A DNA stretch of 64,000 bases. Origin: Ralstonia sp. SET104 (GTDB lineage Bacteria > Pseudomonadota > Gammaproteobacteria > Burkholderiales > Burkholderiaceae). The DNA is taken from contig NZ_BHVX01000001.1 of NCBI RefSeq assembly GCF_003851545.1, positions 434,001-498,000 of the forward strand, read 5' to 3'. The translations under genes and the position numbers were made by a program. Every line of letters starts with the position of its first letter. Position 1 is the stretch's first letter. A model generated the notes under the pieces. It ran no database searches and was not told the DNA's origin. It saw only the letters and a list, made by a program, of their open reading frames with translations. This document shows positions 35,709 through 50,806 of the stretch, one piece after another.

Positions 35709-35950
35709 GTGTTGTCTCCTTGGGGCCGCGCTGGAGAGCGGGTCTGCGGCGCAGTGTAGGAGCGGCGCTTCTGCTGCGATGTCTTCTGCATGACATTTGC
35801 TTCGTAAGGTTTGGCGGGTGCCACCCCTTATAGTTGTGACGCCAAGTGAACAAACAGGCGCCACCGTTGTCGCACCAGGGCCGGTCAGGCCCATTCCGCT
35901 GTTCTGCTGTCCAATCCGTTTTCACATCCACATCAACGTCACAGGAACGC

Positions 35951-45871: not shown

Positions 45872-46051
45872 GCTCCGCCATGAATGCTCAGCAAAACGAC
45901 TGCGCGTCCTGATCCTGGTCCTGTGATGCTCGCCGTACTCAAGTGCGGCTGCGCTTCTTGAGCCAACCTCAGACCCTCGCTACGTTTTGCAGAGCATCCA
46001 TCGCCCCAGACGGCGAGGGGCGCAGCCGCTGCAGTTGTAGGAGTTGTTTTC

Positions 46052-47239
46052 ATGGCTTTGCCTCTCGCGGGTTTGCGCGTGCTCGACTTGTCGAACGTGC
46101 TGGCCGGGCCGTTCTGCGGCTATCAATTGGGCTTGCTCGGTGCTGAAGTCATCAAGGTCGAGGTGCCCGGCAACGGTGATCTCGCCCGCCGCCTGGGCGC
46201 TGATCCAGAGCAGGCGCGCCGCAAGATGGGCGCCTCGTTCGTCGCCGTCAATGCGGGCAAGCAATCCGTCACCGTCAACCTGAAGCACCCGGAAGGGCGG
46301 GCGATTTTGCTCAAGCTGGTGGCGCAGGCCGATGCGCTGATCGAGAACTACCGCCCCGGCGTGATGGATCGCCTGGAGCTCGGCTACGACGTGCTGCGCG
46401 AAGTCAACCCGCGCCTCGTCTATTGCGCCATCTCGGGTTTCGGCAAGGACGGCCCGTTGAGCGGGCGCCCGGCCTACGACCAGATCATCCAGGGCATTTC
46501 CGGCGTGATGAGCGTCACGGGCGATGATGAATCCGCTCCACTGCGCGTCGGCTACCCGATCAGCGATACGGTGGGCGGCATCACGGCGGCGCTGGCTGTA
46601 ACCGCTTGCCTGCTCGGCGCGCAACGCACGGGCGAGGGCCAGATGGTCGACGTGTCGATGCTGGAATCGACACTGGCCACCATGGGCTGGGTGGTGTCGA
46701 ACTACCTGAATGCCGGCGTGAGCCCACGCCCGATGGGCAACCAGAACTTCACCGCCGCACCGTCGGGCACGTTCCGTACGGGCGACGGGCTCATTAATAT
46801 CGCCGCCAACGAAGACAAGCAGTTTGCGGCGCTGTGTCGCGTGGTCGGCCATCCGGAACTGGCCATCGATGCGCGTTTTGCCGAGCGCCACGCGCGCAAG
46901 GAGCACCGTCAGGCGCTCAACGATGCGCTGGAAGCTGCGCTGGCTGCACGGCCGGCGGCGCAGTGGGAGCCGATGTTGATCGATGCTGGCGTTCCCGCCG
47001 GGCTGGTGCTCGATGTGCCTGGCGTACTTGCGCACGAACAGGTGACGGGCCGCGGCTTTGTGACCTCGTTCCCGGAAGCGGGGCAGCACGTCACGCGCGC
47101 GGGCTTTCGTCTGTCCGGCGAAGATCCATGCCCGCAGACGCCCGCGCCGCCGCTTTCCGCCCATACCGATCACTGGCTCGTCAAGCTCGGCTACCAGACC
47201 GACCACATTGAAGCGCTGCGCGCGGAAGGCGCCATCTGA
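46052..47239 (+). CDS. CaiB/BaiF family CoA-transferase
   Basis: This is a 395-residue class III CoA-transferase. The N-terminal GLRVLDLSNVLAGPFCGYQLGLLGAEVIKVE is the family start. Asp172 in GYPISDTVGG corresponds to the catalytic Asp169 of formyl-CoA transferase. YRPGVMDRLELGY and GFGKDGPLSGRPAYDQIIQG are also conserved. These enzymes move CoA between carboxylic acids. The next gene, 2 bp after the stop, is a citryl-CoA-lyase-like protein, so the CoA acceptor is probably a substituted di- or tricarboxylic acid that is then cleaved. Confidence 0.93.
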   Translation: MALPLAGLRVLDLSNVLAGPFCGYQLGLLGAEVIKVEVPGNGDLARRLGADPEQARRKMGASFVAVNAGKQSVTVNLKHPEGRAILLKLVAQADALIENYRPGVMDRLELGYDVLREVNPRLVYCAISGFGKDGPLSGRPAYDQIIQGISGVMSVTGDDESAPLRVGYPISDTVGGITAALAVTACLLGAQRTGEGQMVDVSMLESTLATMGWVVSNYLNAGVSPRPMGNQNFTAAPSGTFRTGDGLINIAANEDKQFAALCRVVGHPELAIDARFAERHARKEHRQALNDALEAALAARPAAQWEPMLIDAGVPAGLVLDVPGVLAHEQVTGRGFVTSFPEAGQHVTRAGFRLSGEDPCPQTPAPPLSAHTDHWLVKLGYQTDHIEALRAEGAI

Positions 47240-48096: not shown

Positions 48097-48989
48097 CTTA
48101 CTTCAACTGGCCCACCGTCGAAACCACCGTCTTTGCGCAGATGCCCGCCGCGCTGCGCCGCCCCGTTCCGACCGAATGGTCGCGCGCCAACAAGGGCGGG
48201 GCGCCGGTCGAGTGCTTTCTGGAAGGCCCGTGCTGGGACGCGCACGGCAATCTCTGGCTGGTCGACATTCCGCATGGCCGCATCCTGCGAGTCTCACCGC
48301 AGGGCGATTGGAGCGTCGTTGCCGAATACGACGGCGAACCGAACGGCCTCGCGCTTCGCCACGACGGCACGCTGCTGATTGCTGACTATAAGAATGGATT
48401 GCTGTCGCTTGACCCAATAACGGGCGTGGTCGCACCGTTGCTCACCCGCCGCAACAGCGAGCGCTTCAAGGGCCCCAACGATCTGATCGTCGCCCGCAAC
48501 GGCGACGTCTATTTCACCGATCAGGGCCAGACCGGCCTGCACGACCCCACAGGCCGCGTGTATCGCCTGCGCACGGACGGCCGGCTCGATTGCCTGCTCG
48601 CCAACGGCCCGAGCCCGAACGGTTTGGCGCTCACCCCAGACGAATCCGCGCTGTTCGTTGCCATGACACGCGACAACGCCGTTTGGCGCCTGCCGCTGCT
48701 GGCCGACGGCAGCACCAGCAAGGTCGGCCGCTTTGCACAGTTCTATGGCACCAGCGGCCCCGACGGCATGGCGATGGATGCCGCGGGCCATCTGTTTGTC
48801 GCGCACGCATCGTTGGGGGCGGTGTTTGTACTCTCGCCGCATGGCGAACCGCTGGCGCGCATCGCGTCGTGCCGCGGGCGTACGACCACCAACGTAGCGC
48901 TCACGCCCGACGGGCAATCGCTGGTCATTACCGAATCTGCCACGGGCGTTGTACTGCGCGCCAACTGGGCACCGCCCCACCACGGCTGA
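48093..48989 (+). CDS. SMP-30/gluconolactonase-family protein
   Basis: This 298-residue six-bladed beta-propeller is of the SMP-30/gluconolactonase/LRE-like family. Metal ligands can be placed: Glu in VECFLEGPCW, Asn in FKGPNDLIVA, and the NGLALTPDE blade. The family hydrolyses sugar and hydroxy-acid lactones. The ATGA overlap with the lyase gene shows it belongs to the operon; it could open a lactone form of the imported acid before CoA activation. It has no signal peptide, so it acts in the cytoplasm. Confidence 0.88.
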   Translation: MTYFNWPTVETTVFAQMPAALRRPVPTEWSRANKGGAPVECFLEGPCWDAHGNLWLVDIPHGRILRVSPQGDWSVVAEYDGEPNGLALRHDGTLLIADYKNGLLSLDPITGVVAPLLTRRNSERFKGPNDLIVARNGDVYFTDQGQTGLHDPTGRVYRLRTDGRLDCLLANGPSPNGLALTPDESALFVAMTRDNAVWRLPLLADGSTSKVGRFAQFYGTSGPDGMAMDAAGHLFVAHASLGAVFVLSPHGEPLARIASCRGRTTTNVALTPDGQSLVITESATGVVLRANWAPPHHG

Positions 48990-49019
48990 GCGCACGCGCG
49001 GGCTGTCGTCGCAGCCCGC

Positions 49020-49550
49020 TGTCCTACAGCTGTCCTACAAGACGGCGGCCCGCCAGATCATCAAAATTCCTTCGTTTTCTCTCCGTGCAGACGGCTATGC
49101 CGCACTTTTTGCGGCACCGCGTCAAACAAAGTGCGGCAGCCGTCCTTTCCAGTCCCGGCAAACTTGCCTGATTGGCGATTTTTGTATCGCTTAGATAGAC
49201 GCGTCTTTTTTAGAAAGACAATACCGTAAGAATCGTCCTACAAAATAACCGTTCGAATGTAGGAGCGATCCTACAAAGTCAGCCAAAAATGGGGCGGAAC
49301 TGTCCTACACGGTGTGTAGGAGCGGGTCAGAAGTGTCCTACAAGCGGTTAACCCGGCATCCGATGCTCACAGTCGCAGAAGTGCGACGCCTTCTTTGTTA
49401 ATTTGCGGCAACTTTAGGCAATTTAATTGCTATCTTTGGCCGAACATTGGGGTAAATACGTGTCAAACGCCCGCTTTAGCGCATCGTCCACTCAGGGCCG
49501 TTGCGTCGGCAAAGGCTTCATTTGCAACGTTTATTAACAGATTTGTAGGA
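49020..49550. promoter_or_regulatory. Array of nine TCCTACA/TGTAGGA boxes before flhDC
   Basis: Forward copies lie at 49022, 49033, 49236, 49269, 49303 and 49336; reverse copies at 49258, 49315 and 49544 (start positions of the 7-mers). Five forward copies read GTCCTACA. The first two are exactly 11 bp apart, one helical turn. 49258-49275 is the palindrome TGTAGGAGCGATCCTACA. By chance far less than one copy would be expected in this length. The simplest reading is a multi-site operator for a regulator of the flagellar master operon. Confidence 0.65.
49090..49144 (+). promoter_or_regulatory. Mutually exclusive hairpins in flhD upstream region
   Basis: GACGGCTATGCCGCACTTT (49090-49108) can pair with AAAGTGCGGCAGCCGTC (49128-49144), leaving a two-base bulge. 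Its inner part, TGCCGCA (49098-49104), can instead pair with TGCGGCA (49110-49116). This is the geometry of an attenuator or terminator/antiterminator switch. It may also simply end the lactonase operon, although no T-run follows. Confidence 0.5.
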
Positions 49551-49849
49551 AATTCGCTTACAAGAAAATGGATTACCTCACCCCTCCGACGTAGGGGTCC
49601 CCCCTTCTTTACTTACCCCCGACGTCAACACACAATGTGTTCAACAGAAAACAACTTCGCCATGTCTTCAGCGACGTGAGTAAGAAGGGGCAGGAAGTGC
49701 CGGCAACGGCGCCCACTGCAGGAACATCCGATCTGTGGGGATTGGTGAGCAGCCCGGCGAGGGTAGGCGCAAAAAAAATAGCGCCAACCGGACATCACCA
49801 TGCGAGATCGGATGCAAGTTGTACTTTTACTGCACACGACGGGATATAC

Positions 49850-50167
49850 ATGGACACGCAAGACATTGTTTCCGAGATCAGCGAGCTGAATCTCACTTAC
49901 TTGATGCTTGCCCAGCAGATGCTGGCCAAGGATCGCGATGCCGCGCTCTTCCGCCTTGGCATCTCTGAAGAATTGGCTGACATCCTGCTGACGATGTCGC
50001 CCGCGCAGATCGTCAAGCTGGCCAGCACGAACATGATGCTGTGCCGCTTCCGCTTTGACGATCACGCCATCCTGGGTCTGGTGACCCAGCCGCACCGTGA
50101 CAAGGGCCTGCAGCAATCGCAAATGTCGATCCTGCTCGCGCGTCAGGCGGTTGAGCAAATTAACTGA
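49850..50167 (+). CDS. flhD: Flagellar master regulator FlhD
   Basis: This is the 105-residue FlhD subunit of the FlhD4C2 complex that activates class II flagellar genes. The start MDTQDIVSEISELNLTYLMLAQQMLAKDRDAALFRLGIS is the family hallmark. The ATG at 49850 is chosen on that basis; the upstream open frame lacks similarity. flhC follows after 78 bp. The exceptionally long upstream region with repeated boxes implies heavy regulation. Confidence 0.95.
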   Translation: MDTQDIVSEISELNLTYLMLAQQMLAKDRDAALFRLGISEELADILLTMSPAQIVKLASTNMMLCRFRFDDHAILGLVTQPHRDKGLQQSQMSILLARQAVEQIN

Positions 50168-50245
50168 ACCGTTTGCGGCGGATGTTCCGCCGGGTTCAGC
50201 CCTTGCACCTTGGATGAGTAGCAGAAGCAAAGCGGGAGCAGTGCC

Positions 50246-50806
50246 ATGCGTCACACCAGCGTCATGAACGAAGTTGAGCAGATCCACCTTGCAGCGGAAT
50301 TGATTTCGCTCGGTGCGCGCCTGCAACTGCTGGAACAGGAAACCACGCTCAGCCGTGAGCGTCTGGTCAAGCTGTACAAGGAAATTCGTGGGGAATCGCC
50401 GCCCAAGGGCATGCTGCCCTTCTCGGCAGACTGGTTCCTGACGTGGTCGCCGAACATCCATTCGTCGATCTTCCTGAACATTTATCGTTTTCTGGGCGAG
50501 AACAGCCGCAGCACCGGTGTGCGCCGCTTGATCTCGGCCTACAAGCTGTACCAGGAACATATTCACGTCCACGACCAGGAAGAGGTGCTCTCGATCACCC
50601 GCGCGTGGATGATGTTGAAGTTCTTCGAGGGGAAGATGCTGCACACCGTGAAGTGCAAGCGCTGCACGGGTCATTTCGTGGCCCACGCAGACGACCTGCA
50701 CCATGATTTCGTGTGCGGTGTATGCCAGCCGCCGTCACGCGCAGGAAAGAAAAAGCGCGTCGCTGCTCCGGTTGATGCGATCGCAGAAAAGACGATCGAG
50801 GCCTGA
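50246..50806 (+). CDS. flhC: Flagellar master regulator FlhC
   Basis: This is the 186-residue FlhC subunit of the master activator. The zinc-binding cysteines are in VKCKRCTGHFVAHADDLHHDFVCGVCQPP (about residues 136-164), as in E. coli FlhC. GMLPFSADWFLTWSPNIHSSIFLNIYRFL is a second signature. GGGAG precedes the ATG at 50246. Two stem-loop terminators lie in the gap downstream, so flhDC is separate from motAB. Confidence 0.95.
   Translation: MRHTSVMNEVEQIHLAAELISLGARLQLLEQETTLSRERLVKLYKEIRGESPPKGMLPFSADWFLTWSPNIHSSIFLNIYRFLGENSRSTGVRRLISAYKLYQEHIHVHDQEEVLSITRAWMMLKFFEGKMLHTVKCKRCTGHFVAHADDLHHDFVCGVCQPPSRAGKKKRVAAPVDAIAEKTIEA

Follow-up and report, generated by a model that had tools for sequence, protein, structure and literature searches.

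A putative heptamer operator conserved upstream of flhDC in Ralstonia and other Burkholderiales, with a GacA/NarL-class response regulator as its predicted reader

Whether a cell swims or lives sessile is decided at the flhDC operon. In Bordetella, the fha promoter has a cooperative array of BvgA upstream, built on inverted and multiple heptamer half-sites (TTTCCTA), and RcsB, with its NarL-type HTH, offers a second point of comparison. In enterobacteria, the response regulator RcsB is reported to control flhDC transcription directly (PMC13432727). UvrY is described as binding an 18-bp TGTAAG-N6-CTTACA repeat, with an extra TGTAGGAGA half-site at csrB (PMC4682653), and TGTAAG-N6-CTTACA is also reported at Pseudomonas rsmY (PMC4353343). 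For R. solanacearum, the regulators of FlhDC are given as PehSR and VsrBC on the positive side and MotN and VsrAD on the negative side (PMC10653808), VsrAD lowering, and VsrBC and PehSR raising, motility or FlhDC (PMC11960443, PMC10653808). The available passages of such Ralstonia papers name flhDC regulators but no mapped site.

The window analysed here is a stretch of Ralstonia DNA of 64,000 nucleotides. In it, a gap of 860 bp separates the end of the preceding ORF (48989) from the ATG of flhD (49850), and nine exact copies of the heptamer TCCTACA/TGTAGGA lie within 529 bp of this gap, six of them forward (49022, 49033, 49236, 49269, 49303 and 49336) and three reverse (49258, 49315 and 49544). 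The features of the array and the operon are as follows.

49022 to 49039, + strand: tandem heptamers, TCCTACA twice, 11 bp apart, the distal pair (exact match)
49225 to 49242, unstranded: imperfect 18-bp dyad CGTAAGA-N4-TCCTACA (right half 49236-49242 exact, left half 49225-49231)
49258 to 49275, unstranded: perfect 18-bp dyad TGTAGGA-N4-TCCTACA (exact match)
49303 to 49321, unstranded: everted pair TCCTACA-N5-TGTAGGA (exact match)
49336 to 49342, + strand: single heptamer TCCTACA (exact match)
49544 to 49562, unstranded: promoter-near 19-bp dyad TGTAGGA-N5-GCTTACA, a putative widely conserved operator (from comparison across genomes)
49631 to 49636, + strand: predicted -10 hexamer CACAAT of the flhDC promoter (from the conserved distance to the dyad)
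49850 to 50167, + strand: flhD (Pfam FlhD, 144.5 bits)
50246 to 50806, + strand: flhC (Pfam FlhC, 280 bits)

The promoter-near dyad sits 200 bp downstream of the single heptamer at 49336. A recount agreed with the first-pass annotation on the nine copies and their orientations, on the two copies set 11 bp apart (49022/49033) and the perfect 7-4-7 palindrome (49258-49275), and on there being two isolated copies elsewhere in the window, at 35755 and 46036; the array was also correctly placed directly before the flagellar master operon, flhD and flhC being identified by Pfam downstream. The copy at 35755 falls inside overlapping ORFs. That at 46036-46042 reads TGTAGGA, nine bases 5' of an ATG at 46052, and resembles a Shine-Dalgarno/ribosome-binding site rather than an operator.

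Compared with dinucleotide shuffles, the 11 heptamers of the window (nine in the array plus these two) stand against 1.27 expected, with a maximum of 6 in 100 shuffles. In the stretch 48993-49849 the nine copies stand against a shuffle mean of 0.055, the largest count in 5000 shuffles being 2; the commonest 7-mer of whatever kind reached at most 7 copies in this stretch across 1000 shuffles. The genome holds 78 heptamers in 4.80 Mb, and the expectation for the array stretch from the other 69 copies is 0.008 (Poisson P ~2e-25). The perfect dyad at 49258-49275 is the sole match of TGTARGAN{3,6}TCYTACA in the genome.

The first-pass annotation knew of no described regulator with this site, and this has to be modified. 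The site resembles a known kind: as in the GacA/UvrY boxes of csrB, csrC, rsmY and rsmZ, as far as the cited passages describe them, the half-site is TGTARG and the site lies far upstream of the promoter, the perfect Ralstonia dyad TGTAGG-N6-CCTACA has the same inverted 18-bp geometry, and csrB too has an extra half-site. The novelty lies in its flhDC target, in the array, and in the pseudo-receiver of Ralstonia discussed below. Unlike those boxes, the promoter-near dyad has an N7 spacer and a length of 19 bp, the half-site is TGTAGG, nine half-sites are present in Ralstonia, and the predicted target is flhDC, often joined by the operon of the regulator itself, rather than the Csr/Rsm RNAs. 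Both heptamer and targets differ from those of BvgA. The likeness to RcsB lies in a response regulator acting, here by prediction, on flhDC; Rcs, however, represses, and does so through a different phosphorelay. In openly licensed papers, represented mostly by titles or passages, we found no earlier description of the site, and among the matches listed for a literature search with the heptamer letters, none concerned a bacterial flhDC operator by its title.

Within Ralstonia, 12 distinct flhD upstream sequences were aligned. The six central heptamers, the single one at 49336 among them, are exact in all 12, and the promoter-near left heptamer is exact in 10/12 and one base off in 2/12, its right half reading GCTTACA or GCCTACA. 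The distal tandem is the least conserved part, with both copies exact in 6/12, one in 4/12 and none in 2/12. At 49225-49231, where the window has the left half CGTAAGA, the other aligned sequences read GGTAGGA (9/11) or AGTAGGA (2/11). Overall, 44 of 63 heptamer columns are invariant vs 364 of 862 outside (p=3e-5). The relaxed dyad TGTARGAN{4,5}NCYTACA has matches in 14 of 15 Ralstonia genomes, every one of them upstream of flhD; the reversed control pattern has 11 matches in the same 15 genomes.

Beyond the genus (genera carry g-labels here, g1 being Ralstonia), what is kept is the dyad. The family set comprised 150 genomes, 106 of them with a FlhD hit, and 104 entered the dyad and co-occurrence counts (without G134 and G144); where a genome has several flhD copies, one or two were read. 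The strict dyad TGTAGGAN{3,6}TCCTACA gives 39 sites in 38 of the 150 genomes, and 36 of the 39 are at most 1 kb upstream of flhD. Allowing up to 2 mismatches, 84 of 104 Burkholderiaceae genomes have the 19-bp dyad in front of flhD, and G144, whose contig stops short and which was read apart, has TGTACGA-N5-GCCTACA. At this threshold there is no flhD dyad in g3 (13/13), g13 (2/2, both with a 4-mismatch form), two g10 genomes, G116, G036 and G143. The commonest forms outside Ralstonia fit TGT(A/C)(A/G)GAAAAATTCCTACA. Two named Paraburkholderia loci (L047, L051) carry the dyad and a third (L045) a 3-mismatch form, with p-values from mononucleotide shuffles. In other Burkholderiales families, 17 of 27 scored flhD upstreams carry the dyad at p<=0.04 and 10 do not, the 27 being drawn from 37 matching genomes outside the family and the p-values again coming from mononucleotide shuffles. 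When 300 genomes of the order were searched for the exact dyad, 21 sites came up in 20 genomes, 6 at flhD, 14 elsewhere and one further site in G288, so that beyond the family exact dyads also occur away from flhD. To judge from these sequences, the part conserved across genera is a single promoter-near dyad, and the distal copies are a Ralstonia elaboration. This comparison, within Ralstonia and beyond it, upholds the first-pass annotation in reading the copies as an operator; that the array is cooperative, as was also proposed, we infer from copy number and spacing.

The distance from the end of the dyad to an nACAAT-like -10 hexamer is 66-69 bp in most matched genera (g1, g5, g11, g12, g16, g18, g21 and g25). 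The search pattern for the hexamer found no match in g7, g10, g13, g14, g17 and some g12, g16 and g21 sequences; in g10, GACAAT is seen by eye at a similar place. From the conserved distance, the flhDC start is predicted near 49643, which would centre the dyad near -90. A sigma-54 enhancer of the PehR-like kind was considered for the distal array, and by eye no conserved GG-N10-GC element was found there.

Two other elements were noted in this region. Between the array and the promoter dyad, a conserved palindrome-like stretch at 49412-49437 (TTTAGGCAATTTAATTGCTAT) is perhaps the site of a second regulator. A long inverted repeat, CCTTCTTTACTTAC (49604-49617) and GTGAGTAAGAAGG (49677-49690), strongly conserved in Ralstonia, flanks the predicted -10, and the 250 nt at 49600-49849 fold well as RNA (z -2.8). 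The CCTTCTTTACTTAC arm would fall 5' of the predicted start, so that transcription either begins further upstream or the repeat works as DNA.

The regulator now has a leading candidate, a response regulator of the GacA/NarL type that we label RR-X and whose binding is predicted. It was reached from L208, an intact GacA-like regulator of Ralstonia (G000 C17:10722-11351), 47-51% hits of which lie 54-75 kb from flhD in g11, g25, g17 and g7. RR-X is present at >=64% identity in 75 of the 150 family genomes, and a divergent form occurs in 14/14 Ralstonia (92-100% identical) and in g5 (50%). Counting RR-X together with this form, regulator and flhD dyad are both present in 84 genomes and both missing in 17; in 3 genomes (G116, G036 and G143) RR-X stands without a dyad of up to 2 mismatches, and in none does the dyad stand without RR-X, 'absent' here meaning below the score cut-offs, as g3 and g13 do have GacA-like proteins that are more distant. 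The dyad is thus found in 84/87 genomes with the regulator and in 0/17 without it (Fisher 8e-17, a figure that ignores shared ancestry, the independent losses behind the co-occurrence being about three, in g3, g13 and g10). In g10, G009 (two flhD copies read) and G047 (one) lack RR-X and dyad alike. By Pfam, RR-X (g11) and its Ralstonia orthologue both consist of Response_reg and GerE; the best NCBIfam family for RR-X, L208 and the Ralstonia protein is UvrY/SirA/GacA, with scores (188 bits for RR-X of g11, 189 for L208, 109 for the Ralstonia protein) below the equivalog cut-off of 280 bits.

The surroundings of the RR-X gene vary. In the regions read of g7, g11, g17 and g16 and in three Ralstonia (L383, L452, L453) it adjoins a flagellin gene, identified by Pfam in Ralstonia (L383) and by reading elsewhere; in those of g10, g12, g14, g21 and g25 it lies between reductase-like and permease-like genes, not beside fliC. 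In 22 of 28 loci the heptamer precedes the kinase gene, 1.08-1.37 kb before the start of RR-X and often within a dyad, the rest of these loci being without it. By genus the figures are 8/9 in g12, 2/3 in g14, 8/8 in g21, 4/4 in g25, 0/3 in g17 and 0/1 in g18. The 28 come from 30 loci (L387-L416, without L393 and L412), in three of which (L396-L398) the motif script missed the kinase; L427-L431 were left out of this count, and L431 also out of the receiver comparison and the tree. There is no heptamer upstream of RR-X in g11 (0/11) or of the Ralstonia gene (0/10 parsed loci). Other NarL-type regulator genes, too, have a dyad with at most 1 mismatch close to their 3' side (L132, L133, L193, L199, L201 and L369, in g12, g25 and another family), 2-mismatch dyads lie likewise near NarL-type regulator genes in g21 (L191, L192), and the related L208-type and FixJ-type clades have similar sites near their genes as well.

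In Ralstonia the RR-X orthologue (G000 C14:116898-117530) is an orphan, with no kinase motif recognised beside it in 10 parsed loci. Its receiver has, in 14/14 genomes, EP in place of the DD acidic pair, S for the phospho-acceptor Asp and M for the Lys, and its HTH is 62-68% identical to that of RR-X. It joins RR-X in a tree at 99/97; its branch is long (2.27), and the program warns of long-branch joins, which calls for caution. Ralstonia is thus the genus with the enlarged operator and also the one with a phosphorylation-incompetent regulator, and we infer that the two are linked. The lost receiver residues, together with the lack of a recognised adjoining kinase, make it likely that the array is read by this orphan.

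The explanation we favour, and consider probable, is that each heptamer serves as a half-site for a GacA/UvrY-like response regulator of the NarL/FixJ superfamily, with RR-X reading the ancestral dyad and the orphan reading the Ralstonia array. According to this model, the ancestral state would be one 19-bp dyad, centred some 90 bp before the predicted flhDC start and occupied by an RR-X dimer; the RR-X gene lies in several genera beside fliC or less than ~80 kb from flhD, often behind a HisKA_3-type kinase gene and with the same operator, so that in many relatives RR-X may also control its own operon. A dimer at about -90 would most likely activate the weak flhDC promoter. Activation is suggested by the position of the dyad upstream of a weak -10; it is the weakest step of the model, and repression is possible. 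In Ralstonia the operator would have gained eight half-sites, which lie ~300-620 bp before the predicted start; the orphan would fill this cooperative upstream array, perhaps jointly with its intact relative L208. One may go further and speculate, tentatively and with somewhat more doubt than belief, that a flagellin-linked regulator has here become a kinase-free pseudo-response-regulator and its operator a nine-half-site enhancer, that control of swimming has moved from phosphorylation to protein level and cooperative occupancy, and that the dyad regulon is about one operon per genome.

A different reader of the Ralstonia array, the intact L208 instead of the orphan, is rather unlikely, yet it is the rival with most in its favour. 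The L208 gene lies near a membrane sensor kinase gene (CHASE3-type by reading) and a receiver-only gene, a locus that may be vsrAD. The protein is 100% identical (rounded) over 210 aa in 14/14 Ralstonia (scores 441.8-444.5), and one heptamer, TGTAGGAC, is retained on the 3' side of the gene in 14/14 Ralstonia, in g5 and in 2/12 g3 loci read, lying in the spacer between L208 and the receiver-only gene (L226 6720-7490 and 6176-6616, G000 C17). In g21, the left half of the dyad is TGTA in 7/7 genomes with an L208 orthologue vs 2/6 without. VsrAD is, moreover, reported to control swimming negatively in R. solanacearum (PMC11960443, PMC10653808). As to its identity, the kinase near L208 has its His at 256 or 261 vs 258 for the phospho-His given for VsrA, no locus tag matched in the passages available, and one paper names a response regulator, RSc0291, apart from VsrD, which could be the L208 gene (PMC12993560); L208 may be VsrD or a neighbour of VsrD. 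Against L208 as the reader of the site, its presence does not track the flhD dyad, with 49 genomes having and 17 lacking the dyad where L208 is present and 35 and 3 where it is not, and g3 has L208 (86-92%) yet no flhD dyad of up to 2 mismatches in 13/13. L208 was therefore rejected as the general binder, and it may contribute at the Ralstonia array.

An oxygen-sensing system of the FixLJ type is improbable as the binder of the site and controller of flhDC. Two g12 genomes do have exact dyads flanked by the gene of a FixJ-like regulator and one of FNR/Crp type (names by reading), and Burkholderia dolosa offers a FixJ-type system that changes flhD expression, flhD being reported as down 2.9-fold in a fixLJ deletion and 10.9-fold higher with the evolved than with the ancestral fixL allele (PMC5234846, PMC8406202). 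That effect may be indirect, however, and the FixJ-like protein here is a putative counterpart of B. dolosa FixJ. The FixJ-like proteins form a clade apart from RR-X in the tree and are patchy with respect to the flhD dyad: the regulator is missing at E<=1e-60 from several perfect-dyad genomes (e.g. G092, G095, G109, G125 and G136), no dyad of up to 2 mismatches occurs in 38 kb around its closest G000 homologue, and among 20 regions around FixJ-type regulators 5 have such a dyad and 15 do not. This distribution does not support it as a general binder. Still further from likely, to the point that we give it hardly any weight, is that the heptamers are a dispersed repeat, a mobile-element remnant or an RNA-level element. 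Inverted copies can form hairpins, and CsrA binds GGA motifs; but heptamers of either orientation occur before the predicted start, with their columns conserved, and a scan of 48800-50300 gave no Rfam hit at gathering thresholds. Nowhere else in the genome are the heptamers dense: 9 of the 78 copies are in the array and the rest are scattered, with a group of three as the only other loose cluster, and on these counts, with those of the dyad, a dispersed repeat was rejected. A LuxR quorum box, EvgA and BvgA were considered as leads and set aside as direct identities.

A conserved operator and a co-occurring regulator, which often has the same operator upstream of its own operon, form a testable pair for much of the Burkholderiales. 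The Ralstonia branch would add to this a natural case in which a response regulator loses phosphorylation while its operator expands.

Some smaller observations concern sites away from flhD. The one other loose heptamer cluster in the genome list, three copies within 770 bp (L053 2163-2926, G000 C15), was followed as a lead; the region was read and led nowhere. In two g30 genomes, exact dyads (L373 1501, L374 1501) lie between acyltransferase-like and RpfF-like enoyl-CoA hydratase genes, named by reading. In three genomes of another family, an exact dyad (L358, L359 and L360, each at 1501) adjoins a conserved small protein gene, and in L358 and L359 it also adjoins the gene of an OmpR-type regulator.
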